Shown here: piece after piece, positions 28,027 through 62,974 of the stretch | Layout of the letters: every line of letters begins with the position of its first letter | How positions within the stretch are numbered: the stretch's first letter is position 1 | NCBI GenBank assembly: GCA_945861565.1 | Contig: CAMAUY010000002.1 | Span: 1-64,000 of the forward strand | DNA: 64,000 nt | Source: Akkermansia muciniphila | GTDB lineage: Bacteria; Verrucomicrobiota; Verrucomicrobiia; Limisphaerales; UBA9464 | Direction of reading: 5' to 3' | The notes under the pieces: generated by a model | Told to the model about the DNA's origin: nothing | Databases searched by the model: none | The model's input: the letters and a program-made list of their open reading frames with translations, nothing else | Position numbers and translations under genes: made by a program

Positions 28027-29055
28027 TTAATCCTTTCGCCCCACCTCGTCGACCCACGCCTGGTTTTCCAAGTACCATCGCACCGTTTCCCGAATGCCTT
28101 GTTCAAACGTATGGGCCGGCTTCCAACCAAGCTCCTGTTCCATCTTGCCCGCATCGACGGCGTAGCGGCGGTCATGGCCGGGGCGATCCTTGACGAAGGT
28201 GATTAATCGTCGGGACTCGCCCCCTCGCGCCGGTTCGAGTTCATCGACCAGATCACATAGCAGTTCCACGATGCGAATATTGGCCCACTCATTGTGACCA
28301 CCGATGTTATAGGTCTCCCCGAGTCGCCCGCGCCGAAGCACCTGCCACAACGCTTCGCTATGGTCACCGACATAAAGCCAGTCCCGCACGTTCAACCCAT
28401 CGCCATAAACCGGTATCGGTTTGCGGTTCAGAATATTTTGAATGACGACTGGGATCAGTTTTTCAGGAAATTGCCGAGGCCCATAATTATTGGAACAGTT
28501 GGTGATCAGGGTAGGAAGCCCATAAGTGTGGTGGTACGACCGCACCAGCAGATCACTGGCCGCCTTGCTGGCGGAATAGGGGGAATTCGGAGCGTACGGT
28601 GTCGACTCCTTAAAATACCCAGTAGGCCCAAGAGATCCGTACACTTCATCAGTGGAGACATGCAGGAATCGCGCGCCGGCATTGGCACCCGCCGGCCCAC
28701 TCTGGGACCACATTTCACGGCACGCCTCCAGCAGGTGAAATGTTCCCACGATGTTCGTATGAATGAAATCGCCGGGCCCACTGATCGAACGATCCACATG
28801 CGATTCCGCGGCCAGATGCATCACCTGATCGATGGCGTGTTCCTGGACGACGCGCAAGACCGCGGCCTTATTCCGTAAATCGACCTTCTCGAACCGATAC
28901 TGCGGATGCCCTGCCACCGACCGCAAATTGGCTGGATGCCCCGCATAGGTAAGGCAGTCCAAATTGACGAGGCGATTCACCTCGGGGCGACCCATGAGGT
29001 GTTGAATCAAACTGGAACCGATGAATCCGGCACCGCCGGTGACGAGAAGGTTCAT
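28027..29055 (-). CDS. rfbB: dTDP-glucose 4,6-dehydratase
   Basis: The 342-residue SDR enzyme turns dTDP-glucose into dTDP-4-keto-6-deoxyglucose. Visible features are the NAD-binding GGAGFIGSSLIQHL, HLAAESHVDRS, the catalytic STDEVYG triad segment and YSASKAASDLL (Tyr and Lys), and NNYGPRQFPEKLIP. It is the last gene of a three-gene nucleotide-sugar block on the minus strand, after rfbA and an rfbD-like gene. The product likely feeds lipopolysaccharide or exopolysaccharide synthesis. Confidence 0.93.
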   Translation of the reverse strand: MNLLVTGGAGFIGSSLIQHLMGRPEVNRLVNLDCLTYAGHPANLRSVAGHPQYRFEKVDLRNKAAVLRVVQEHAIDQVMHLAAESHVDRSISGPGDFIHTNIVGTFHLLEACREMWSQSGPAGANAGARFLHVSTDEVYGSLGPTGYFKESTPYAPNSPYSASKAASDLLVRSYHHTYGLPTLITNCSNNYGPRQFPEKLIPVVIQNILNRKPIPVYGDGLNVRDWLYVGDHSEALWQVLRRGRLGETYNIGGHNEWANIRIVELLCDLVDELEPARGGESRRLITFVKDRPGHDRRYAVDAGKMEQELGWKPAHTFEQGIRETVRWYLENQAWVDEVGRKD

Positions 29056-29124
29056 ATTAAATTGAGGGCGAGAAAGGGTGGAACAAATTGACGGCCAGGG
29101 GCATCAGCGTCCATTGGAAAAGCG

Positions 29125-30081
29125 TCATGCCCGCTCGGGCTTCCAATGCCGCAACGCATCCATCAAAGCATCTTCCACCCCTCGTATAACCACACCCGCG
29201 CTCAGAATTTTGTTCGTGTCCAGTACGCAATTGGAACGTGGGGCCCTGGCTGCGAGACGATAAAACTCGAGATCGCTGGACCAAAAATCAAACACCCTGC
29301 CCGGGAGCAACTCCCGTTCGATGGCTTCGATTACCTGACGGGTGGTCACAAACCCCGGATTGGTCACATTGTAGATTCCGAAGGGAGCCCGGATGTCCCA
29401 AAGGTCGAGGCAAGCGCGTACATAATCTCCAAGGTGCGAAATCGAATTTACATTATCGTATACCTTTGCATACCGCTGCACCTTGGAGAGGTAGTTTCGC
29501 GGATTGTCCCGCTCGTCGAACGGGATTCGAAGCCGCCACAGATAGCTCCGCCCCAAACCGGCAATTGCCTCCTCACCCAGCGCTTTGGTGCCACTGTAGA
29601 AACTGCAAGGCCCCCGCCGGAACGAAAAATTCGGCTCGTCCGTTTCGCGAAAACCCTCAACCCGATCCGGTTCGGACTCGACAATGCGGCGGACCTCCGC
29701 GCGGGTCAAATCGGGCTCAACGTGGAGCGAGCCATCCGGCTCGCGGATGCGTGCGCCGGTATAGATGCATCCGGAAGAAACGTGCCCCCACGGAACCTCG
29801 GCCGCGGCACAGGCATGGGCGATCGTCTGGGGCAACAGGGTATTGCCGGCCAAGGTGTCGGCTTGTGCCCCTTCGCAGGCATCAACGTTGGGCTTCCCCG
29901 TGTATCCAGCCGCATTGATAAGAAATGTGGGACGTTGCTCCCGGAGCCTCCGGTACAACGATTCGAAATCGGAATAGTCGAATCTCTGCCGCGACAGCTC
30001 CTCAAACGGGATGCTTCGTCGGCTCAACTCACGCGCGAACTCGCTCCCCACGTAACCCGTATGACCCAAGAGTAAAACCAT
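29125..30081 (-). CDS. NAD-dependent nucleotide-sugar reductase/epimerase (RfbD-like)
   Basis: The 318-residue SDR-fold protein has the Rossmann motif GHTGYVGSEFARELSRR, NAAGYTGKPNVDACE, SSGCIYTG and the catalytic YSGTKALGEE. The layout (short N-terminal strand, NAAxxTxVDxxE-like block) resembles dTDP-4-dehydrorhamnose reductase, but the sequence is divergent. A related dTDP-keto-sugar reductase role is inferred from its place between rfbA and rfbB. Gaps are 8 bp after rfbA and 69 bp before rfbB. Confidence 0.75.
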   Translation of the reverse strand: MVLLLGHTGYVGSEFARELSRRSIPFEELSRQRFDYSDFESLYRRLREQRPTFLINAAGYTGKPNVDACEGAQADTLAGNTLLPQTIAHACAAAEVPWGHVSSGCIYTGARIREPDGSLHVEPDLTRAEVRRIVESEPDRVEGFRETDEPNFSFRRGPCSFYSGTKALGEEAIAGLGRSYLWRLRIPFDERDNPRNYLSKVQRYAKVYDNVNSISHLGDYVRACLDLWDIRAPFGIYNVTNPGFVTTRQVIEAIERELLPGRVFDFWSSDLEFYRLAARAPRSNCVLDTNKILSAGVVIRGVEDALMDALRHWKPERA

Positions 30082-30089
30082 CGCGGCGG

Positions 30090-30965
30090 TTAGCTCGATC
30101 GCCGGGCCTCCTCCGCCACCGCGACGAGATATTCCCGATACTCACATCGCGGCATGGCAGCGGCAAGGTCATCCAATGTTTTCAAGGACAGGAAGCCGCG
30201 TCGGAAAGCGGCTTCCTCGGGGCAGCCCACCTTGATGCCCTGCCGCTTCTCAATCGTCTGCACGAAGGCGCTGGCCTCATGCAGACTGCTGCTCGTGCCG
30301 GCATCCAGCCAAGCAAAACCCCGGCTGAGTTTCTGAACCCGCAACTGGCCTCGACGGAGATACTCGCTGTTCACATCGGTGATTTCCAGTTCTCCCCGCG
30401 GGCTGGGCTTCAGATTGCGGGCAATTTCCACAATCGAGTTGTCATACAAATACAGGCCCGGCACCGCATAGTTGCTCCGCGGCTCCCGCGGCTTCTCGAC
30501 GATCGAGAGAGCCTGCCCCGCGCTGTCGAACTCCACCACGCCATATCGCTCCGGGTCGTGAACACGGTATCCAAAAATCATTGCCCCGGCGCAGAACTGC
30601 GAGAACGCTTGATGAAAGACGTCGCCTCCGTAAAAAATATTGTCCCCAAGAATCAAGGTTACGGGGTCGCTCCCGATGAACGATTCCGCAATTCGAAATG
30701 CCTGGGCAATTCCTTCGGGGCGCGATTGTTCCCGGTAGTCGAACGAAACCCCAAGCCCGGATCCATCTCCCAATAGCTGCCGGTACCGTGGCAGATCGTG
30801 CGGGGTGGAAATCAGGCAGATCTCCCGGATTCCGCCTTCGATCAGAGTTGTCAGCGGATAGTACACCATGGGTTTATCATAAATCGGCTGGAGCTGTTTG
30901 CTTGCCACGAGCGTGAGCGGGTAGAGACGCGACCCGGCACCGCCGGCGAGCAGGATTCCCTTCAT
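30090..30965 (-). CDS. rfbA: Glucose-1-phosphate thymidylyltransferase
   Basis: The 291-residue enzyme joins dTTP and glucose-1-phosphate into dTDP-glucose, the first step of dTDP-sugar synthesis. It shows the nucleotidyltransferase signature GILLAGGAGSRLYPLT, KPMVYYPLTTLIEGGI, LILGDNIFYG and YAVPGLYLYDN, with WLDAGTSSSLHEAS near the C-terminus. It is the first gene of the block, with rfbD-like and rfbB genes downstream. No rfbC epimerase gene is in the block. Confidence 0.94.
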   Translation of the reverse strand: MKGILLAGGAGSRLYPLTLVASKQLQPIYDKPMVYYPLTTLIEGGIREICLISTPHDLPRYRQLLGDGSGLGVSFDYREQSRPEGIAQAFRIAESFIGSDPVTLILGDNIFYGGDVFHQAFSQFCAGAMIFGYRVHDPERYGVVEFDSAGQALSIVEKPREPRSNYAVPGLYLYDNSIVEIARNLKPSPRGELEITDVNSEYLRRGQLRVQKLSRGFAWLDAGTSSSLHEASAFVQTIEKRQGIKVGCPEEAAFRRGFLSLKTLDDLAAAMPRCEYREYLVAVAEEARRSS

Positions 30966-31121: not shown

Positions 31122-32066
31122 TCAACGCGTCGCCGCGGCGATCTTCGATAACTCATCAAACACCGGCCCGCGCGTCGGAATATCCACGGCGAACACGTCA
31201 GAAATGACGCGCGTCCAGCCGTGGAGAAAATAGACCCAGCCATCCTCGATCTGAAGGTGGCGCGACCTTGCCTGCGCGCGCGCCTGGTCGAGGAAGATAA
31301 GGTCTCCGCGATAGTTGAACTCCCACACCCGGGCGCGTTCGGGAAACACGGCGGCGGCGGTGAGAGGCGACCCGGGCGCATCCTTACCGAGGCCCGTGGC
31401 ATTCACCACGAGGGAGCCCGGCGGCAGTTTGGGCAGCAGCGCATCAGCCAACTCCGGTCGCGGGACGTGATGGGTGTCGAGCGGTACGCCGCCCTGCCAC
31501 GAGGCGTGCAGGTCCCGGACGTGGTGGAGGCGCGGCAGGCTGCGATTCGCGATGTGCACGCGCGCCGGCCGGTTCGCGCCAAACTCGGGCCGACATAAAT
31601 GCCAGGCTAGCGCCGTCGCCGAACCGCCCGCGCCCAGAATGAGCGCCTCCGCGCCCGTGTCGCGCCAGTAGCTCGCCGGGATAAATGCGTCGAGCGAATA
31701 ACCGACGGTCCACGGATCGACCGCGCGGGCGTGGAGCTTGCCGTCCCGTTTGAAGAGACTGCTGACTTCGCCCAACGCGGCGGAGATGGGCTCAAAGGCG
31801 TCGAACGCGTCGCGCGATGCGGCGCAGAGGTCAATCTTGTGCGAGGTGACGAGTGCGCCACGCGTAAGCGGATCGCGCTTAATGAACTGGACGGCCTCGC
31901 GGTAACGCGCCGGGTCTGCATGCAGCGGAAAATCCATGCCGCGCAATTCGCAGTCACCCAATCCGAGCCGCTGAGCCCAGGGGGGGAAGACTTTGTTGAT
32001 GGACGATTTTCCCGTGGTGACACCGATGAAGATCATCGCTGGCTTGGTGGAAGGAGTGTAAGTCAT
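31122..32066 (-). CDS. Shikimate-dehydrogenase-like oxidoreductase
   Basis: The 314-residue protein has the AroE fold: an N-terminal substrate domain and a C-terminal NADP domain (LILGAGGSATALAW, HIANRS, VVNATGLGKD). The catalytic Lys (K77 in VTSHKID) and Asp (D117 in AVDPW) line up with AroE. The usual shikimate contacts do not: SLSP is SSIN, and the NTD block is AVDP. It is therefore probably not the biosynthetic enzyme. It is the last gene of a minus-strand set with an FGGY kinase, a zinc-type dehydrogenase and a Gfo/Idh protein, which points to catabolism of a polyol or cyclitol (inference). Confidence 0.8.
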   Translation of the reverse strand: MTYTPSTKPAMIFIGVTTGKSSINKVFPPWAQRLGLGDCELRGMDFPLHADPARYREAVQFIKRDPLTRGALVTSHKIDLCAASRDAFDAFEPISAALGEVSSLFKRDGKLHARAVDPWTVGYSLDAFIPASYWRDTGAEALILGAGGSATALAWHLCRPEFGANRPARVHIANRSLPRLHHVRDLHASWQGGVPLDTHHVPRPELADALLPKLPPGSLVVNATGLGKDAPGSPLTAAAVFPERARVWEFNYRGDLIFLDQARAQARSRHLQIEDGWVYFLHGWTRVISDVFAVDIPTRGPVFDELSKIAAATR

Positions 32067-32078
32067 GAATAAAGTACG

Positions 32079-33569
32079 TCAGCGAGCGGCCCAATCATTG
32101 AGTGTCGTCAGCAACGCCTCATAATGCTCACAACGCTTTTGGTAATGGGCGGCGTGCACGGCGTTTGGCAGGAAGCGCCGTCCCATCCGCACCCAACGTG
32201 CCGCGGCGGCCGGCGGACTCGGGAATATTCCCACGCCGACGCCCGCGAGCATCGCCGCCCCCATCGGCGCGCCACCGCTGTTTTCGATCTGCACGATGGG
32301 CATCTGCAGCACGTCGGCCTTGAGTTGGTTCCACATTCCGCTCTTCTCGCCGCCGCCGGTGATGCGCAGTTCGGCGAAGGTAACGCCCGGCAGCAACCGC
32401 CGCAAAGCCTGCTGATAGAGAGCGTATTCGAGTGCGACGCTTTCCAGCACAGCGCGATAGAGTTCACCGCGCGTGTGGTCCCACGTCAGCCCGACCCATG
32501 CGCCGCGTAACGCCGGCCAACCCGGTGAGACACGCCCGCCGAGATGCGGCACGAATAACGGGAGCGCATCGTCCGGTGGCACGGCGGCGGCGAGTGCATC
32601 GAGTTCGTCGAAGGTCAAATCCGGGCCACCGCCGAACTCACGGCGAAACCATTCGAGGTTCAAGCCGCCGCCATTGATGTAGGCGTAGGGATGCCATAGG
32701 CCGGCCGTGACCGATTGGCCGCAACCGAGTGTGCCGCTGTAAACGTCGGGCGCAAAAGCGTCGGCCGTCGCCGCGAACACCGACGCGGTCCCGGCAACAT
32801 CGACACAGACACCGGGCGCGGTCGCGCCACAGGAAAGGAAACTCGCTGCAGTGTCCCCACAGCCAGCGATCACCGGTGTGCCAACCGGCAGGCCGCAATC
32901 CTGTGCAAACCTGGAGACAAGCCCGCCAACCGGCGCGGAAGGTTCGACAATCCGGGGAAGTTTTTCCAACGCGACGCCGAACTGCCTACAGAGCGCCGCA
33001 TCCCAGCATTTGCTGCGGTTGTCCGCGAAGCCGGAGAAGTGAAGGTAGCTCGTGTCCATGAACGCATCGAGCGCGCGCAGTCCGCACAAGCCCATCGCAA
33101 CGTAAGCGCCCGGCTGGACGAACTTGGCGATCTGCGCATATTCCCTAGGACGCTCCCGCTGCCACCAGAGGATCTTGGGACCGTGATTGAAACTCGGCGC
33201 GTTGCCGGTGGCGCCGAGCACGGCGTCGCCCGCCTCGGTCTGCATCCGCCTGATCTGATCACCGCAGCGCGTGTCGAGCCAAGAGTCATAGGGCGTGACC
33301 GCACGCCCATCCGGACCAATGCCAATCACGCCGGCCATCTGTCCCGCGATGCCCAAAGCGGCCACGTCCCGCGCGCCGCTTCGATCAATGCACTCGCGTA
33401 CGAGCCGGCAAGTCGAGGCGAGTTGAAATTCGGGATCCTCCTCGACGACCCCCGGCGCGGGTCGATGCGGGCGGGACGCCTCGAACGCCTCGGCGCGACA
33501 TTCACCGTCAGCCGAATACAGCGCGGCCTTCACTCCCTGCGTGCCGATGTCAATGCCGACGAGGGTCAT
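32079..33569 (-). CDS. FGGY-family carbohydrate kinase (xylulokinase-like)
   Basis: The 496-residue kinase starts at the ATG at 33569 (MTLVGIDIGTQGVK), which overlaps the dehydrogenase stop by 4 nt (ATGA). A long upstream open frame is rejected. The N-terminal phosphate-binding loop GIDIGTQGVKAALYS, LGIAGQMAGVIG, YDSWLDTRCGDQI and the C-terminal LRITGGGEKSGMWNQLKADV fit the xylulokinase branch, which makes keto-sugar 5-phosphates. The ADH-kinase overlap suggests an oxidise-then-phosphorylate pair. The substrate is unknown. Confidence 0.88.
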   Translation of the reverse strand: MTLVGIDIGTQGVKAALYSADGECRAEAFEASRPHRPAPGVVEEDPEFQLASTCRLVRECIDRSGARDVAALGIAGQMAGVIGIGPDGRAVTPYDSWLDTRCGDQIRRMQTEAGDAVLGATGNAPSFNHGPKILWWQRERPREYAQIAKFVQPGAYVAMGLCGLRALDAFMDTSYLHFSGFADNRSKCWDAALCRQFGVALEKLPRIVEPSAPVGGLVSRFAQDCGLPVGTPVIAGCGDTAASFLSCGATAPGVCVDVAGTASVFAATADAFAPDVYSGTLGCGQSVTAGLWHPYAYINGGGLNLEWFRREFGGGPDLTFDELDALAAAVPPDDALPLFVPHLGGRVSPGWPALRGAWVGLTWDHTRGELYRAVLESVALEYALYQQALRRLLPGVTFAELRITGGGEKSGMWNQLKADVLQMPIVQIENSGGAPMGAAMLAGVGVGIFPSPPAAAARWVRMGRRFLPNAVHAAHYQKRCEHYEALLTTLNDWAAR

Positions 33570-34597
33570 GCGGTAAATTCCAGTCGCGATTTCAACCCAC
33601 GTGCCGTCGCCATCGCCAGAATGGCCTGTTCGGCCTCCTCGATCGGATGGGTCGACGTAACGAGGTCTTCGAGGCGAAGCACGCGATCGCTCACCAGCGC
33701 AAGCACGGCCTGAAACTGACGCAGGCTCTGCCGCGTCGTGCCGGTGACCATGAGCTGGCGATAATGGATGAGGTTGGTATCGAGTGGAACGACCGCACGG
33801 TCCTTCGGCAGGCCGCCGAAGAAGATGACACGGCCGTTCACCGCCGCGAGTTCGAGCGCGAGCGTCTGCACTTCCGGTACGGGGCACGCGGTGATGATCA
33901 CGTCCGCACCGGCACCACCGGTAAGTTTCATCAACTCAGCGCGCAGATCCCCACCGAGGGGGATGAACATCGGGTCAATGCGCCGCGCCATTTGCAGGCG
34001 TTCAGCGTTGAGGTCATTGATGAGGACCTTGCCCGCGCCAGCGAGTCGTGACATTTTTCCGTGCATCACGCCAATGGGTCCCGCACCGATAATGAGGACG
34101 GTGTCGCCGGGGCCGGTGCGGGCCTTTTCATAGGCATTGAAAACGCACGCCATCGGCTCGATCAGCGCGCCCTCGGTGAAACTGACGTGGTCGGGGATGG
34201 GAAACACGTTACCTTGCTGCACCGCGTGCGCCGGAATGCGCACAAACTCCGCGAACGCGCCATCCTCGTGAATGCCCAGCGCGCGGTAGCCGGGGTCGAG
34301 ATGGCCCTCGCCCGCGAGGGTGAGTTTGGAGGCAACCGGATTGTAGTTGGGTGCGACACAGACGCGCTGGCCCGGTCGAAAACTCATCACGCCCGCGCCG
34401 ACGCGCTCGAGCGTGCCGGACATTTCGTGACCGATGACGAGCGGCGTGACCGCGTGGCCGTGCTTGAGCATCCGGATGTCTGTGCCGCACACGCTGGCGC
34501 AGGCGGTGCGGAGAAGAAGTTCGCCTGGCCCAACTTGCGGCACCGGGAGTTCCTCGATACGAAGATCGTTTTTTCCAAAAAGACGGGCGGCTTTCAT
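33566..34597 (-). CDS. Zinc-type alcohol/polyol dehydrogenase (MDR family)
   Basis: The 343-residue medium-chain dehydrogenase has the catalytic zinc ligands SVCGTD (Cys), VIGHEMSG (His, Glu) and ALIEPMACV (Glu), and the NAD-binding GAGPIGVMHGKMSR. The four-cysteine structural zinc lobe of classical members is absent; the region around residues 98-115 reads NYNPVASKLTLAGEG. The protein resembles sorbitol- or threonine-dehydrogenase-like members. Its stop overlaps the kinase start. Heptamer repeat arrays begin just upstream of its start. Confidence 0.88.
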   Translation of the reverse strand: MKAARLFGKNDLRIEELPVPQVGPGELLLRTACASVCGTDIRMLKHGHAVTPLVIGHEMSGTLERVGAGVMSFRPGQRVCVAPNYNPVASKLTLAGEGHLDPGYRALGIHEDGAFAEFVRIPAHAVQQGNVFPIPDHVSFTEGALIEPMACVFNAYEKARTGPGDTVLIIGAGPIGVMHGKMSRLAGAGKVLINDLNAERLQMARRIDPMFIPLGGDLRAELMKLTGGAGADVIITACPVPEVQTLALELAAVNGRVIFFGGLPKDRAVVPLDTNLIHYRQLMVTGTTRQSLRQFQAVLALVSDRVLRLEDLVTSTHPIEEAEQAILAMATARGLKSRLEFTA

Positions 34598-34618
34598 GGT
34601 GAGGGAGGACGGAGGGGG

Positions 34619-34670
34619 CAGTATTCAGTATTCAGTATTCAGTATTCAGTATTCAGTATTCAGTATTCAG
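34619..34670. repeat. Heptanucleotide tandem repeat, cagtatt x 7.4
   Basis: The unit cagtatt is repeated seven times plus cag without any change over 52 bp. It lies 22 bp upstream of the dehydrogenase start codon (minus strand). Perfect repeats of this length are prone to slippage. Confidence 0.95.
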
Positions 34671-34730
34671 TGGTCATGGGTTATTGGACAGCTATTCCCA
34701 GTCGCGTGTGAATTCCAGCCTCATTACCTA

Positions 34731-34849
34731 TCACTGACCACTGATTACTGATCACTGATTACTGATTACTGATCACTGATCACTGATTACTGATCACTGA
34801 TCACTGATTACTGATTACTGATCACTGGTTACTGATTACGGATTACTCA
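34731..34849. repeat. Heptanucleotide tandem repeat, t(t/c)actga x 17
   Basis: Seventeen 7-bp units fill 119 bp, alternating mainly between tcactga and ttactga. The last units are degenerate (tcactgg, ttacgga, ttactca). The final tca is the reverse complement of the TGA stop of the Gfo/Idh gene that ends at 34847, so the array reaches into its stop codon. The unit is a near reverse complement of the array at 34619-34670, so the two can fold into a long imperfect stem. Confidence 0.92.
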
Positions 34850-35887
34850 TTTTCCCGGTTTCTCATTGGTGACTCCCACGGGACGCCGCTCGAGAATGGA
34901 GCGGTTGCCAGCATTGACGACGGCAACGGCAGCACGCCCATCGCGACCCGTGACACCGGCGGGCCGTTGCTCGCGGATGGCGGTGATAAATTCGATGTCC
35001 TCGGCAAGATACGCGTCTCGATAGAGCTGCGTCCACGAGACGACCGCCGGGCGGCGCAGTTCCTTTTCGCGTGTGCAGATAACGGTCGTGCCGGCATTGA
35101 GGTTGCCGATGCTAATGAGGCCGTGGGTGCCGATGATCTCGACGCGCGAATCGTAGGCGTACTGGACGCCTTGCGCGCCGGTGATGCAACCCTGCGGGCC
35201 ATTGCTGATACGCGCGGAGAGCAGTATCTGGTCATAAAAATCGGGATGTGACTGACGGGCCTCCGGAGTGCGGTAGTTGCCGGCGATGGCATATACTTCC
35301 GTGAATTCGCCGCCGGTGAACCAACGCACGGTGTCAATGTCGTGGCTGCAAACCTCGGCGAGCGGACCGTTGCTTTGCGCGAGGTCAAACATCCACGGCT
35401 TGGGATAGGTCGGGCCGTGGGTGCAGGATTTGACCAGCACAACGTCGCCAATCTCGCCCGCTTGCACCCGCTCGTGTGCGGCCCGAAAGTGATCATCGAA
35501 GCGGCGCATAAACCCAATCTGTAGAATGACACCCGCTTTGTCGGCCGCCGTAATCATCGCGTCGCATTCGGCGGAATTCATCGCCATCGGCTTCTCGCAA
35601 AAGACGTGTTTGCCTCGGCCTGTCGCGGCGAGGGTGATCTCGTGGTGCAGCGCGGTGGGGGCGGCAATGAGTATCCCCTGCACGGAACGATCGTCGAGCA
35701 GCGCCCGGTAATCTGAATAGTCGGCGACCCCTCCGAGTTCACCCGTCGCTGCTGCGCGGGCCGCTGCGACCGGATCGGAAATGGCCGCGACGCGCGCACC
35801 GGGCACGAGTCGGGCAAAGTTGCGGGCATGGATCATCCCGGCACGGCCCGAGCCGACAATCCCAATGCCGATTGCGGAACTGTTCAT
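34847..35887 (-). CDS. Gfo/Idh/MocA family oxidoreductase (inositol 2-dehydrogenase-like)
   Basis: The 346-residue NAD(P)-dependent dehydrogenase starts at the ATG at 35887. The Rossmann part shows GIGIVGSGRAGMIHARNF and the family signature HVFCEKPMAM (Lys). The catalytic domain shows CSHDIDTVRWFTGG (Asp, His). The overall pattern is close to myo-inositol 2-dehydrogenases. No signal peptide is present, unlike the Gfo/Idh protein at 60.4 kb. It is the first gene of the sugar/cyclitol set. Its last codons abut the heptamer array. Confidence 0.88.
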   Translation of the reverse strand: MNSSAIGIGIVGSGRAGMIHARNFARLVPGARVAAISDPVAAARAAATGELGGVADYSDYRALLDDRSVQGILIAAPTALHHEITLAATGRGKHVFCEKPMAMNSAECDAMITAADKAGVILQIGFMRRFDDHFRAAHERVQAGEIGDVVLVKSCTHGPTYPKPWMFDLAQSNGPLAEVCSHDIDTVRWFTGGEFTEVYAIAGNYRTPEARQSHPDFYDQILLSARISNGPQGCITGAQGVQYAYDSRVEIIGTHGLISIGNLNAGTTVICTREKELRRPAVVSWTQLYRDAYLAEDIEFITAIREQRPAGVTGRDGRAAVAVVNAGNRSILERRPVGVTNEKPGK

Positions 35888-36117
35888 GGGTCTGATCGTA
35901 GCAGCCCCCTGCGGTAGGCCCAAGGATGGATGCTCCCAACGCGCAATGGGTATTCACCCTTAACAAACTCAACGTTTAGAAAAAGGAAAGCCAGGGGAGG
36001 CCCAAAAGTGTCCAAACTCCAGTTCCGAGCGCTCCTGCGGAACGATCGGGGGTTCCCACATTTTATCGCCAAGTTCATTGCGACCGGAGTGGTCCGCGTG
36101 CTAAAAACACACCATCC

Positions 36118-54293: not shown

Positions 54294-55778
54294 GTGAGAC
54301 GCATCTTTCAAGTTCCATCGCTGCTGGTCGCCGTGCTCCTTCAGCTTGCACCCCTCAGCCGGACTCTGCCCGTGTCGGTTTTGCCCGTTGCATCGCCCAT
54401 CGCCGTCGTCTGGCAGATTCTTCTCCGAGCGGCCGCGGTGGCCGGAAGTTTTCACGCCGTGTCCGGTGCGACAACCCTGGTAAGCCCGGAATCCGCCAGC
54501 GGGAAAGTGGGGGTACCCTTCAACTACAAGGCAGAAATCTTCAGCGACCAATACCTTTCACCTAAATCGTATTCCGCCACCGGCATTACCCCCACTCCGA
54601 AGGACATTGCCACGCTTGGATTCGTGATCGACAATCTTTCCGGCCAAATCAGCGGGACGCCGAACAAGGCCGGAACCCACAAGATTAAGCTCACCGGTTG
54701 GCATAAGTCGAATCTCTCGGGCGATAGTGCATCGTATAATATCACGTTCGTCATTAGTCCAGGCGGTACTGCTCCGACGATTTCCCTGCAGCCCCTCGCC
54801 CAAACCGCAACCGTCGGTGACACGGTCACACTTCGTGTTGCCGCCACCGGAGACTCGCCATTTACCTACCGATGGATCCGCAACGGAATTGAACTTTCTG
54901 GCAAAACGAATTCGACCCTCACTTTCAGTCCCGTCGCGCTAACGGATGACGCCGACTACTCCGTTCGCGTCACAAATCCCTCCGGCAACACTCCCAGTGC
55001 AACGGTCCATCTGACCGTCGTCGCGCCCCCAGTTTCCCCCGTGATCACGCTCCAGCCGTTGGGCGTCAGCGCCAATTCGGGCGCCAACGTTGAATTCCGG
55101 TCGCAGGCCAGCGGGGCTCCAGCCCCAACCTATCAGTGGTTCAAAGGATCGACGCTTCTCGCCGGTAAAGTAAGTTCCACTCTCTTCCTGCCCAATGTCA
55201 CCACCAATGATGAGGGTGCCTACTCCGTTCACGTCAGCAATGCCGGCGGCACGGTCCCCAGCAATCCTGCACTCCTGACGGTCTTTGTCGCCCCCAGCGT
55301 CACCCTGCACCCGTCGGATCAGACAGTGCCGGCGGGGACATCGGTCACGTTCAACGTTGCCGCCACGGGCAAACCCGCCCCGTCCTTCCAGTGGTACCAT
55401 GGAAACACTCTCCTGATCGATTCCACCAATGCCATCTTGGAAGTGACCGCTTCCGACTCAACAATGGGATCGTACCACGCCGTTGCGAGCAATGTCGCCG
55501 GCACTGCCCTCAGCACTTCCGCCTCTCTGACGTTGGAGCCAACGGTCGTGCTGACCGTTCCACCACTTCATCTGATTTCGGTGGGCGAGACCGTTTCCGT
55601 GCTGGAGTTCACAGCCTCGCCCGGAGGCGCGTATGTGATCGAATATCTGGATACGCTCCACGGCACCCGCTGGGCACCCGGTCCAACGCTGTCGAACAGC
55701 ACCGGGTCCGTCTTCGTCGAAGTGCCCAGTGGTGAAGTCGGAGCTCGTTTTTGGAGGGTCCGATTGGGCACGAATTAA
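54294..55778 (+). CDS. Exported protein with three immunoglobulin-like domains
   Basis: The 494-residue protein starts at a GTG (54294), with a hydrophobic leader (SLLVAVLLQLAPLSRTLP). A putative Ig-like/He_PIG domain (about 75-155, LSGQISGTPNKAGTHKI) precedes three Ig-like domains at about 160-243, 248-330 and 332-417. These carry repeat patterns such as YRWIRNGIELSGKTNSTL, YQWFKGSTLLAGKVSSTL and FQWYHGNTLLIDSTNAIL. A beta-rich C-terminal part ends ARFWRVRLGTN. Such proteins are common on verrucomicrobial surfaces, probably for adhesion or binding. The preceding 173 bp hold no gene. Confidence 0.85.
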   Translation: MRRIFQVPSLLVAVLLQLAPLSRTLPVSVLPVASPIAVVWQILLRAAAVAGSFHAVSGATTLVSPESASGKVGVPFNYKAEIFSDQYLSPKSYSATGITPTPKDIATLGFVIDNLSGQISGTPNKAGTHKIKLTGWHKSNLSGDSASYNITFVISPGGTAPTISLQPLAQTATVGDTVTLRVAATGDSPFTYRWIRNGIELSGKTNSTLTFSPVALTDDADYSVRVTNPSGNTPSATVHLTVVAPPVSPVITLQPLGVSANSGANVEFRSQASGAPAPTYQWFKGSTLLAGKVSSTLFLPNVTTNDEGAYSVHVSNAGGTVPSNPALLTVFVAPSVTLHPSDQTVPAGTSVTFNVAATGKPAPSFQWYHGNTLLIDSTNAILEVTASDSTMGSYHAVASNVAGTALSTSASLTLEPTVVLTVPPLHLISVGETVSVLEFTASPGGAYVIEYLDTLHGTRWAPGPTLSNSTGSVFVEVPSGEVGARFWRVRLGTN

Positions 55779-60366: not shown

Positions 60367-61860
60367 CTAGACTCGGGAGGGCACTTCAAACCCGCGGCGA
60401 TACTCGCGTGTCAGCATCGAATTCGCCCGCCGACTGGAACCCGTGAAACGCTCGGTCTGCGTGTCCATATCGAGCGATGCACCCATCACGAATGGCGTCC
60501 GAGTCAGATCAATACCATTGGCTCCCAGGTGTTCATTGAGACGAGCCAACGTTTCGGATGCCGCCGGATTCCCCTGCAAACGCTCCCGGAGGGCTCCGGG
60601 AGAAAGCTTTTCCCCGAGTTGATAGCTCACATTGGCGGTGTGGCACAGGCCGCTGCTCAGGTGCCCCTCCTCGATCTCGGCATTCAAATCGTGCGGGCGG
60701 CGGCTGCGGACTGCGGCGATGAAATTTGCGTAATGATCCGCAGCCCCTTTCCAACGCTTAACCTCGTGGCCTGAGCGGTCGTAGGCGACGGCACTATCGT
60801 AACTTGGAATGCTGAGGTATCCGCCCTCGCACTCGACGATGACACCAATGCTGGCACCCCTGAGCACATCCATATTCTTGCCCCACAACGCCGGTGTCTG
60901 AAACTCCTGGGCCCTCGGCAATCCGCGCACTTCGAAGATCAACGGGGCCCGTTTGAAGCCATGGTAAACGAATTGGGAATTCGGGGTATTGCCATCGTCC
61001 ACGTATCCAAACCGTCCGCCCACGCTGAAGACCGTCGGGCTGAGGGTGCGCTCGCCCAGCGCCCAGCGGGCGATATCCATCTGATGGATGCCCTGGTTAC
61101 CCAGATCTCCGTTGCCGGTGATAAACTGCCAGTGCCAGTCGTAGTGTAACTTCTGCCGCATGAGGGGATTCATCGGTGACGGCCCGCACCAGAGGTCATA
61201 GTCGACGTGGGGCGGAATGGGCGTCGGAGCGGCTACCTTGCCAATGCTCTGGCGCGGCTTATAGCAAAGGCCCCGGGCGAGCGTGATCCTGCCCAGATTA
61301 TTTGCCTGGACCCACTCGACCGCCTCGCGGAGGCCGGGGTTGGAGCGGCTTTGAGTTCCCGTCTGCACGATGCGGCCGTACTTCCGGGCGGCCTTAACGA
61401 TTTGACGTCCTTCCCACGCGTTGTGGGACACGGGCTTCTCGACGTAGACGTCTTTGCCGTGCTGGCAGGCCCAGACGGCGATCAATGCGTGCCAGTGATT
61501 GGGGGTGGCGGTTGAGATTGCGTCAATGTCCCCCCGTTCCAACAGCTTGCGGACGTCGGTGAATTTTTCGACGTGAATGCCCTTGGCGGCAAGGTCCGTA
61601 GCTCCTTTGTCCAAGACGTTGCGATCGCAATCACAGAGCGCCACGAGACGAACGCCTTTTAATTTGGTGAAGCCATTGATATGATCCATGCCACGACCGT
61701 TGAATCCGATGACCGCCACCCGCACATCGTCGTTGGCTCCGATAACCCGTGCGCTCCGCGGCGCAGCCGGGCGTGATGTCGAACAACCTGGAACGGCTAG
61801 CCCTCCGACGCTCAGAGCGGCGGCGGCAAGAAACTGACGGCGTGTAACGTGGGTATTCAT
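60367..61860 (-). CDS. Tat-exported Gfo/Idh/MocA family oxidoreductase, lipoprotein-like
   Basis: The 497-residue protein starts at the ATG at 61860. A Tat signal (TRRQFLAAAALSVGG) ends in a lipobox-like AVPGC. The dehydrogenase domain shows VAVIGFNGRGMDHINGF, DVYVEKPVSHN and GNQGIHQMDIARWALGE. Such exported oxidoreductases are abundant in Verrucomicrobiota and Planctomycetota; some act on sugar derivatives, with cofactor bound before export. It is upstream of the pseudopilins and downstream of the DUF6807 gene on the same strand. Confidence 0.88.
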   Translation of the reverse strand: MNTHVTRRQFLAAAALSVGGLAVPGCSTSRPAAPRSARVIGANDDVRVAVIGFNGRGMDHINGFTKLKGVRLVALCDCDRNVLDKGATDLAAKGIHVEKFTDVRKLLERGDIDAISTATPNHWHALIAVWACQHGKDVYVEKPVSHNAWEGRQIVKAARKYGRIVQTGTQSRSNPGLREAVEWVQANNLGRITLARGLCYKPRQSIGKVAAPTPIPPHVDYDLWCGPSPMNPLMRQKLHYDWHWQFITGNGDLGNQGIHQMDIARWALGERTLSPTVFSVGGRFGYVDDGNTPNSQFVYHGFKRAPLIFEVRGLPRAQEFQTPALWGKNMDVLRGASIGVIVECEGGYLSIPSYDSAVAYDRSGHEVKRWKGAADHYANFIAAVRSRRPHDLNAEIEEGHLSSGLCHTANVSYQLGEKLSPGALRERLQGNPAASETLARLNEHLGANGIDLTRTPFVMGASLDMDTQTERFTGSSRRANSMLTREYRRGFEVPSRV

Positions 61861-61957
61861 GGAATTCTCGCGAGGGTTATAGAAAACAATTGAAAACAAT
61901 CAGACCGGGATTCTCTTTAAGTTCACTTCTATAGCGGGTGGGGTGGATGGAATCCGT

Positions 61958-62974
61958 TCAGGGCGATTCCTGGTAGCGGGTCCATTGTTCGGCGACTCTG
62001 CCTTGCTCCGTGTCGCCGCCGTGGAAGAGGAAACGATATCGAAACGTGACGCTCTTGCCGGCCGGAATTCGGAGATCACCCTCGCCCTTCGGCTTCTTCT
62101 CAAAATCATGCAAACCGAACGGGTTGGCCGCAAAAAGGCCGTAATCCCGCGCATGCCACCAGGTGGGATGGCGCGGATTGGACGGATGGTCAAACATTGA
62201 AATCCCGACCTTACGACCATCGACTGGACCATAATAGTCGCACCACTCGGCCCGTTTTCCCCAAACTGCCGCTCCGCTCGCGCCACGGGAACTGACCAGA
62301 TGCCCGGCACCCAACTGATCCTTCGGCTGCTTGACACGCATTGATTCGGGCACCCGGATAGACATCGACCCCTCCTTGGTGTCTCCCAGCACCAAGTCGC
62401 CGTGTGACGCAATCACGGTAATCTCAAAATCCATCAGCCGCGCATCCACGGGGGTACGATGGAACCGCATTGTCCGCTCATCGGTCGCCACCACCGTGCC
62501 ATCCTTCGCACGCCATTCATTGCGGGTTGTCAATACCCCACGGTCGGTTCCCGATTTCAATTGCGAAAAACCCTGGTGGACCGTCCGGCCGGCCTTCACC
62601 CCTTCGCTCCAGAAATCGACACCGTTGACCTCCCCGTGCGCCCACCAAAGACCGTGATGATGGGGATGATCGCGCTCCTCACCCGACACCTCCTCCTGCG
62701 GCCATCGGCGAGTCATATGCACCCCGCCTGGCCCCAAGATCGGGTAGAAATAGGGGCGGGTCACATCTTGGTAGCGATAGTCGGTGAAATGTTGCCCATC
62801 GACCTCGACCCGAATAACTCCGTTGGTCTCGATCAATGCCACACCCGGAGGGGCCGGAACGGCCGACGCACGATCGCCGAGGGATCGGTGAGTCTGACAA
62901 CCCGACCCCAGGACGGCGAGAATTCCCATTACGCAGAGAGAAAACGTTCCAGAATGACGCCGTTGGGGAAACAT
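61958..62974 (-). CDS. DUF6807 (PmoA-like) lipoprotein
   Basis: The 338-residue protein has a lipobox VLGSGC (Cys about 26). The mature part shows YFYPILGPGGVHMTRRWP, DHPHHHGLWWAHGEVNG, a His-rich block, and HPSNPRHPTWWHARDYGLFA. It belongs to the PmoA/DUF6807 family, which is found in polysaccharide-rich Verrucomicrobiota and is not a methane monooxygenase. The His-rich motif suggests metal or sugar binding. It lies 97 bp upstream of the Gfo/Idh gene on the same strand and probably shares its transcript. Confidence 0.85.
   Translation of the reverse strand: MFPQRRHSGTFSLCVMGILAVLGSGCQTHRSLGDRASAVPAPPGVALIETNGVIRVEVDGQHFTDYRYQDVTRPYFYPILGPGGVHMTRRWPQEEVSGEERDHPHHHGLWWAHGEVNGVDFWSEGVKAGRTVHQGFSQLKSGTDRGVLTTRNEWRAKDGTVVATDERTMRFHRTPVDARLMDFEITVIASHGDLVLGDTKEGSMSIRVPESMRVKQPKDQLGAGHLVSSRGASGAAVWGKRAEWCDYYGPVDGRKVGISMFDHPSNPRHPTWWHARDYGLFAANPFGLHDFEKKPKGEGDLRIPAGKSVTFRYRFLFHGGDTEQGRVAEQWTRYQESP

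Follow-up and report, generated by a model that had tools for sequence, protein, structure and literature searches.

The stretch of DNA analysed here, referred to as the window, comprises positions 1–64,000 of contig CAMAUY010000002.1 in assembly GCA_945861565.1, which is 93.3% complete. Between positions 31122 and 35887 its minus strand carries, in this order, genes for an IolG-like dehydrogenase (P0004), a zinc-dependent dehydrogenase (ZnDH, P0003), an FGGY carbohydrate kinase (P0002) and a dehydrogenase with the fold of shikimate dehydrogenase (AroE-like, P0001). A sequence-only reading had described them as one set linked by an ATGA overlap, and all four open reading frames (ORFs) are found at that place. 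The overlap joins the ZnDH stop to the FGGY start (33566–33569), and 12 bases separate the FGGY and AroE-like genes. The IolG-like gene is set off from the ZnDH gene by 249 bases, mostly taken up by two heptad-repeat arrays, so the tight coupling is limited to three of the four genes. A shorter repeat array is present at the equivalent place in the sister locus L005, and there is none in the short gap of L007. An alternative TTG start for P0004 is possible at 35923.

Table 1. Features of the four-gene set in the window
Feature	Protein	Length (residues)	Position	Strand	Basis or remark
AroE-fold dehydrogenase	P0001	314	31122–32066	minus	alignment, model, structure matches
FGGY carbohydrate kinase, XylB-like	P0002	496	32079–33569	minus	Pfam, TIGR01312
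Zn-dependent medium-chain dehydrogenase	P0003	343	33566–34597	minus	Pfam; stop overlaps FGGY start
Heptad tandem repeat CAGTATT, 7.6 copies			34619–34671	not assigned	between IolG-like and ZnDH genes
Heptad tandem repeat ATCACTG, 16.9 copies			34730–34847	not assigned	inside gene set
Gfo/Idh/MocA-family dehydrogenase, IolG-like	P0004	346	34847–35887	minus	Pfam, TIGR04380, 3ezy

Pfam matches are clear for three of the proteins: GFO_IDH_MocA in P0004, ADH_N/ADH_zinc_N in P0003 and FGGY_N/FGGY_C in P0002. Residues likely to be important for function are retained throughout the aligned family members, including Lys99, Glu178 and His182 of P0004 (16/16 sequences), the presumed zinc ligands Cys37, His57, Glu58 and Glu147 of P0003 (16/16), and Asp7 and Asp239 of P0002 (16/16). 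The kinase scores 252.6 bits against the xylulokinase model TIGR01312 (XylB), below its cut-off of 380.25.

A diverged member of the shikimate dehydrogenase fold

The fourth protein, P0001, matches the Pfam family Shikimate_DH only at E 0.03, below the family cut-off, and its NCBIfam matches are weak and partial, the best reaching 37.1 bits against a cut-off of 295. Shikimate_dh_N (PF08501) is absent from P0001, and the one PF08501 match in the genome is a different gene. A separate, ordinary aroE lies on a different contig of the window's genome. The AlphaFold model of P0001 (mean pLDDT 95.2) was compared with solved structures using Foldseek and VIA-align, and it groups with quinate and shikimate dehydrogenases; the best rows listed are shikimate dehydrogenases, the highest Z being 27.2 over 275 residues. 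Identities in the structural-alignment rows listed are 13–23%. The 5-ketofructose reductase structures 7cok and 7col are among the fold matches listed (Z 25.2 and 24.6), and families outside that listing are not thereby excluded. Public records label the AroE-like protein a shikimate dehydrogenase.

The family was examined in an alignment of 54 sequences, composed of the window protein and 53 of the 73 related loci described below, with 20 partial, broken or near-duplicate loci excluded. Lys77 and Asp117 are invariant in 54/54 sequences and line up with the Lys and Asp of the genome's own AroE, which we take to be the catalytic pair of shikimate dehydrogenase. Thr74, Ser21, Ser22, the glycine-rich loop and most of the segments NATGLGKD and WEFNYRGDL are likewise invariant or nearly so. 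The residues that presumably hold shikimate are Ser14, Ser16, Asn86 and Gln244 in E. coli numbering. The Ser14 position is kept in the AroE-like proteins. Relative to the genome's own AroE, the Ser16 position is occupied by an invariant Ile23 and the Asn86 position by Ser102; the Gln244 position corresponds to an invariant Gly283, an assignment that is less sure because the alignment is gapped in that stretch. Three shikimate-contacting positions thus differ, in agreement with the earlier proposal of changed substrate residues. With the catalytic pair kept and these positions changed, P0001 looks like a working dehydrogenase predicted to act on a substrate other than shikimate.

Together with the shikimate dehydrogenase family (AroE/YdiB/QDH), the AroE-like proteins share the fold over nearly the whole length, the catalytic Lys and Asp, and the glycine-rich loop; the consensus also keeps an Asn-Arg-Ser...Arg pattern, which some alphaproteobacterial members lack. 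They differ from that family in their low identity, in the altered shikimate-contacting positions and in the company of genes for sugar-phosphate enzymes. As reported in PMC7954740, a shikimate-dehydrogenase-related enzyme from Tatumella has an activity of 1428 U/mg on 5-ketofructose and none on 5-ketogluconate, and a similar Clostridium protein is described there as inactive with 5-ketofructose. The AroE fold can therefore serve keto-hexoses, though not in every relative. A protein named shikimate dehydrogenase in the databases has probably acquired a new function here. This would show that proteins recorded under that name do other work, which affects automated metabolic reconstruction.

Spread and gene company of the AroE-like gene

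Close to the window the AroE-like gene is rare, with matches in 3 of the 145 related genomes searched, the window's own among them. A scan of one genome per species recovered 73 AroE-like loci, whose best segments are 41–93% identical. By record title these belong to Verrucomicrobia, Planctomycetes, Lentisphaerae, Kiritimatiellia, Spirochaetes, Alpha- and Betaproteobacteria, Actinobacteria, Clostridia, Anaerolinea and others; not all titles of metagenome-assembled genomes seem reliable, Akkermansia for the window's sister being one example. The gene is present on 15 plasmid records as well, and 12 of these carry a Rhizobiaceae name. So scattered a distribution suggests that the AroE-like gene has been transferred horizontally.

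Neighbouring genes were counted by tblastn, since gene calling by longest ORF admits antisense frames. Matches above bit thresholds within 12 kb of the AroE-like gene were accepted, with Zn dehydrogenases counted across the whole locus; the queries were partly drawn from the same loci, which therefore match themselves. The complete four-gene set is present in 16 of the 73 loci, titled Verrucomicrobia or its groups, Lentisphaerae, planctomycetes, spirochaetes, one alphaproteobacterium and one Anaerolinea. Order and strand are kept in 13, two of which (L010 and L019) have 1.3 and 3.5 kb of extra sequence after the IolG-like gene. The AroE-like gene is placed elsewhere in the cluster in L033, L047 and L066. 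Five more loci have the IolG-like and ZnDH genes without a close FGGY gene. Protein distances, compared over 15 loci and the window (n = 16), are correlated for all six pairs of genes (r 0.59–0.84), with 0/2000 permutations as high for each. One locus, L072, was left out of this test because its FGGY and AroE-like genes are in pieces; in this Pedosphaerales record (L072:8487–10937) the two genes appear as separate tblastn pieces and are probably broken or misassembled. Given the joint occurrence in 16 of 73 loci and the correlated protein distances, the four-gene cluster is not due to chance, and the co-occurrence in other genomes that the sequence-only reading had proposed as a check is found.

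The recurring core is larger than the four enzymes originally taken as the set: the four are real, and an isomerase, a 2-hydroxyacid dehydrogenase, a hydrolase and an aldolase recur with them. Among the 37 loci with more than 9 kb on both sides, a cupin phosphoglucose isomerase is present in 34, a PGDH-like dehydrogenase in 30, an FGGY kinase of any type in 29, a hydrolase in 28 (UlaG-type in 24, phosphotriesterase-type in 4), a Zn dehydrogenase in 27, a KDPG-type aldolase in 25 and an IolG-like gene in 13. In the whole set of 73, short contigs included, the corresponding counts are 54 for the cupin, 50 for the PGDH-like protein, 38 for the UlaG-type hydrolase, 34 for the aldolase and 7 for the phosphotriesterase-type hydrolase. 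The cupin family (PF06560) is otherwise rare, with matches in 5/145 related genomes (one a module carrier, one match weak) and in 2/14 control genomes, both archaea.

The cupin, MBL, aldolase and PGDH-like partners retain the expected functional residues in all or nearly all loci with a match. The cupin of L012 matches the solved archaeal isomerase 1j3p at E 2e-55, and HxH, E and H, which we take to be the metal ligands of archaeal-type cupin phosphoglucose isomerases, are kept in 54/54 loci with a match. The HxHxDH motif of the MBL hydrolase is kept in 38/38 and the aldolase Glu/Lys pair in 33/33; in the PGDH-like protein, Arg and His are kept in 50/51 and Glu in 49/51 loci with a match. The aldolase scanned scores above the Eda cut-off (210.3 vs 156.05), and the phosphotriesterase-type hydrolase reaches 178.5 bits against the phospho-furanose lactonase model NF045706, below its cut-off of 630. 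In Gemmobacter aquatilis (L054:12468–13769), a single fused protein combines the UlaG-type hydrolase with a low-molecular-weight phosphatase domain (PF01451).

Annotation was available for five of six plasmid regions fetched. Four of the five read isomerase, aldolase, AroE-like, PGDH-like dehydrogenase and MBL hydrolase; in the fifth, L081, the aldolase is upstream. A second protein annotated as shikimate dehydrogenase is present in the same Shinella neighbourhood (L081:1761–2567). A sugar ABC system and an FGGY-group kinase lie near the block in all five of these annotated alphaproteobacterial regions, so the earlier statement that no transporter is included is true of the four genes themselves and does not extend to these relatives. 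The AroE-like gene belongs to a widely shared, compact module that probably breaks down an unusual sugar or sugar alcohol. We found no description of such a gene set or enzyme in the open-access full-text literature, a search made with narrow terms that leaves subscription papers and preprints outside and is no proof of absence.

The genes at the front of the module vary. The window-type front end consists of IolG-like, ZnDH and XylB-like FGGY genes. Eleven loci (rhizobial, rhodobacterial, and L057, titled Xenophilus) instead have a kinase of the L040 type, a short-chain dehydrogenase/reductase (SDR) and two Zn dehydrogenases, and in further loci either the Zn dehydrogenase and kinase are of another kind or a GldA-like dehydrogenase is accompanied by SDRs. 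L015 has an SDR, a kinase, the isomerase and the PGDH-like, AroE-like and hydrolase genes side by side, but neither an IolG-like nor a ZnDH gene. The IolG-like and ZnDH pair is just one among several front ends, and this interchangeability points to a shared phosphorylated intermediate behind them.

Putative route and competing readings

We consider the chances about even that the four genes form the conserved first half of a pathway that breaks down a rare sugar or sugar alcohol by phosphorylation and oxidation. The dehydrogenases and the FGGY kinase fit the stepwise oxidation and phosphorylation suggested from the sequence alone. Our best reading, in which both the substrate and the order of steps are inferred, is that the substrate is a rare ketose or hexitol and that the AroE-like enzyme acts on a sugar phosphate. 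The IolG-like and Zn dehydrogenases would turn a polyol or sugar into a ketose (step 1), which the FGGY kinase would phosphorylate (step 2), and the cupin isomerase would make an aldose phosphate from the ketose phosphate (step 3). The AroE-like enzyme would then oxidise a ring carbon of the aldose phosphate, most simply at the C1 hemiacetal, giving a lactone phosphate (step 4), and a UlaG-type or phosphotriesterase-type hydrolase would open the lactone (step 5). Finally, the PGDH-like enzyme would oxidise C2 of the phospho-acid (step 6), and the KDPG-type aldolase would release a three-carbon keto acid and glyceraldehyde 3-phosphate (step 7).

The order of the later steps follows from what each putative enzyme would need. 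To make a lactone phosphate, an aldose phosphate must be oxidised at C1, and among the regular module members the AroE-like protein is the candidate left for this. Opening of the lactone would give the alpha-hydroxy acid on which the PGDH-like enzyme depends, and oxidation of that acid would in turn provide the 2-keto acid required by the aldolase. The sugar phosphate, lactone phosphate, phospho-aldonate and KDPG-type aldolase inferred here are alike in the Entner-Doudoroff pathway and its sugar-acid variants. The module differs in its PGDH-like dehydrogenase, and among its regular members no dehydratase was found. The 6-phosphogluconate dehydratase Edd is above its cut-off in 3 of 30 module genomes, the other 27 having IlvD/Edd-family matches below it; the best score in the window's genome is 213.1 bits against a cut-off of 708.25. 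The scarcity of Edd leaves room for a route without that dehydratase. A tentative and rather doubtful extension is that the module is a dehydratase-free relative of the Entner-Doudoroff pathway, in which isomerisation of a rare ketose phosphate, AroE-fold C1 oxidation, delactonisation, PGDH-like C2 oxidation and cleavage by a KDPG-type aldolase would yield hydroxypyruvate and glyceraldehyde 3-phosphate. If true, C3-hydroxylated sugar acids would be degraded here in a new way, one passed among bacteria of at least eight phylum-level groups by their titles, and the AroE-like protein would be, to our knowledge, the first AroE-fold sugar-phosphate dehydrogenase.

The two hydrolase families that replace each other in the module resemble enzymes for phosphorylated sugar lactones, one the UlaG lactonase of the L-ascorbate route and the other the phosphotriesterase-family phospho-furanose lactonases, with scores below the curated cut-offs. 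The lgu cluster for L-glucose and L-galactose of Luteolibacter LG18 is also from Verrucomicrobiota and likewise involves a 5-keto-hexonate and a final KDPG aldolase (PMC12632266). The lgu genes named in the part of PMC12632266 that concerns us do not include an FGGY kinase, an AroE-like protein, a cupin isomerase or such a lactonase, and we rejected that cluster as the answer because its genes are different. The module occurs in rhizobia that can be cultured, too, and would uncover a route still missing for some natural sugar or polyol.

Several observations weigh against the proposed route. The C1 role of the AroE-like enzyme is assigned by elimination, and a role as 5-keto reductase is about as close to known precedent. 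Many of the family matches are too weak to pass the curated equivalog cut-offs. With UlaG, the L-ascorbate-6-phosphate lactonase (cut-off 306), the MBL protein scanned reaches 40.3 bits, and it does slightly better, 48.2 bits, as a general metal-dependent hydrolase (cut-off 144). The L040 kinase, from a rhizobial locus, scores as glycerol kinase above two cut-offs, so the first phosphorylation there may be of a polyol and not of a ketose. Some loci depart from the module altogether: L014 has no partner within the compared stretch, L046 has the IolG-like and ZnDH genes only, and L070 has a phosphotriesterase-type gene as its sole partner. Of the five related genomes in which the cupin is matched, four lack a match to the AroE-like protein, so the two are not always together. 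Because the 73 loci were picked by the AroE-like gene, they say little about the other genes where it is missing. In the window itself, steps 3 and 5–7 are not encoded beside the four genes, and either other enzymes stand in for them or the route is partly decayed.

As a special case of the preferred reading, which we put forward tentatively, the substrate would be a rare hexitol or ketohexose (such as allitol, D-allulose or D-altritol), and the module would handle the ketohexose 6-phosphate formed from it. D-altritol and D-talitol are one and the same compound (PMC12193009). An ABC binding protein encoded in L059 matches 4ry9 (VEIS_2079) with 57% identity at E 2.4e-112. The ligand of 4ry9 is probably D-talitol; a single-sequence model made to check this was of poor quality (pLDDT 54.4). 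A D-psicose 3-epimerase (389.7 vs a cut-off of 300) adjoins the ZnDH and IolG-like genes in L067, with relatives at 49–52% identity in L013, L017 and L066 and remoter homologues in eleven other loci, all rhizobial or rhodobacterial, and a GatD-like Zn dehydrogenase is present in L040, below its cut-off (293.4 vs 550). However, the binding protein comes from a different front end than the window's, and 44 of the 53 plasmid records carrying it are Sinorhizobium, a genus represented by just one of the 15 AroE-like plasmid records. The epimerase, moreover, would by itself already give fructose.

Two side observations concern possible substrates. In L067 (4248–5999), a DUF2961 protein, presumably a glycoside hydrolase of GH172 and so a hint at a furanoside substrate, adjoins the IolG-like gene. 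A conserved trio, composed of a TIM-barrel protein (PF01261 in L042), a levoglucosan-dehydrogenase-like Gfo/Idh/MocA protein (374 bits, cut-off 650) and a 439-residue protein with no match in Pfam or NCBIfam, lies beside several IolG-type loci (e.g. L019:2910–6356 and L071:11616–14971) and in the window's genome on contig C31 (L104:1651–5074). By cleaving a 3-keto glycoside, the trio may provide the compound on which the four-gene set acts; since the window's genome has the trio on a separate contig, it was not counted as part of the set.

It is unlikely, in our judgement, that the module carries out an inositol route of the Thermotoga type, in which the IolG-like enzyme would form 2-keto-inositol, the Zn dehydrogenase a diketone and a hydrolase a 5-keto-hexonate, with phosphorylation by the FGGY kinase and reduction of the 5-keto group by the AroE-like enzyme. 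The Thermotoga maritima inositol pathway uses IolG, IolM, IolN and IolO, and shares with the module a Gfo/Idh/MocA dehydrogenase adjoining a Zn dehydrogenase; in some module loci a member of the IolO/psicose 3-epimerase family is present too. The best solved relative of P0004 is 3ezy, which we take to be T. maritima TM0414/IolG, P0003 matches the IolM model NF041097 at 151.7 bits, and an AroE-fold reductase of a 5-keto sugar exists. Among 30 module genomes, iolB is above its cut-off in 6 and matched at any level in 11. Most module genomes therefore seem to be without the classical inositol route, and iolB has no match in the window's genome. P0004 reaches 265.5 bits against the IolG equivalog TIGR04380, below its cut-off of 355, and P0003 is below the IolM cut-off of 450, its IolM score lying slightly under that for threonine dehydrogenase (157.7 bits).

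The differences from the Thermotoga pathway extend to the active site and the gene content. An Asp four residues before the catalytic His, which presumably has a role in inositol 2-dehydrogenase, is common to five of five aligned inositol dehydrogenase-type PDB structures, and is replaced by Glu in 16/16 IolG-like sequences. IolN is above its cut-off in 1/30 module genomes, with weaker or better matches at E 0.001 in 19/30, and reaches 50.5 bits against a cut-off of 245 in the window's genome. We also rejected the UlaG-like hydrolase as an IolN homologue, as it has no match to NF041098 at E 0.001 and IolN is rare. In place of these functions the module has the AroE-like protein, an FGGY kinase, the cupin isomerase and an aldolase, and its AroE-like core is often without a close IolG-like gene (one is present in 13/37 long-flank loci); three rhizobial or rhodobacterial genomes without one also keep iolB. 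The cyclitol substrate offered as an alternative in the sequence-only reading is weakened by the Asp-to-Glu change and the rarity of IolN.

That P0001 is a second shikimate or quinate dehydrogenase next to an unrelated sugar operon, as its fold (Z up to 27) and database name would allow, is highly improbable in view of the three altered shikimate-contacting positions, the low NCBIfam score (37.1 vs 295), the separate aroE, and the lack of any quinate- or protocatechuate-named gene in the five annotated plasmid regions.

The window's copy and neighbouring features

In the context of the sugar catabolic module proposed above, the version in the window's genus seems to be reduced, and repeats have been inserted between its genes. 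The isomerase, PGDH-like, hydrolase and aldolase partner genes have no match within the 64-kb window. The cupin PF06560 has no match in the window's assembly or in the sister genome G002. Elsewhere in the genome, the nearest PGDH-like protein is 45% identical and the nearest aldolase 54%, the latter in an hflKC context; the UlaG-type gene was searched for within the window only. Downstream of the window's AroE-like gene stand rml genes, at the place where the relative L006 has an isomerase and a PGDH-like gene. We rejected the rml genes (28027–30965) as part of the set because different genes follow the AroE-like gene in L005.

The rml region contains rmlA, a gene for an RmlD-like reductase and rmlB in a row. 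The middle gene product scores 70.6 bits against an rmlD cut-off of 224.05 and may make a sugar other than rhamnose. Farther along the window, positions 54294–55775 encode a protein with three immunoglobulin-like stretches, and at 60370–62974 a DUF6807 protein stands beside a Gfo/Idh/MocA protein, possibly another sugar-oxidation pair.

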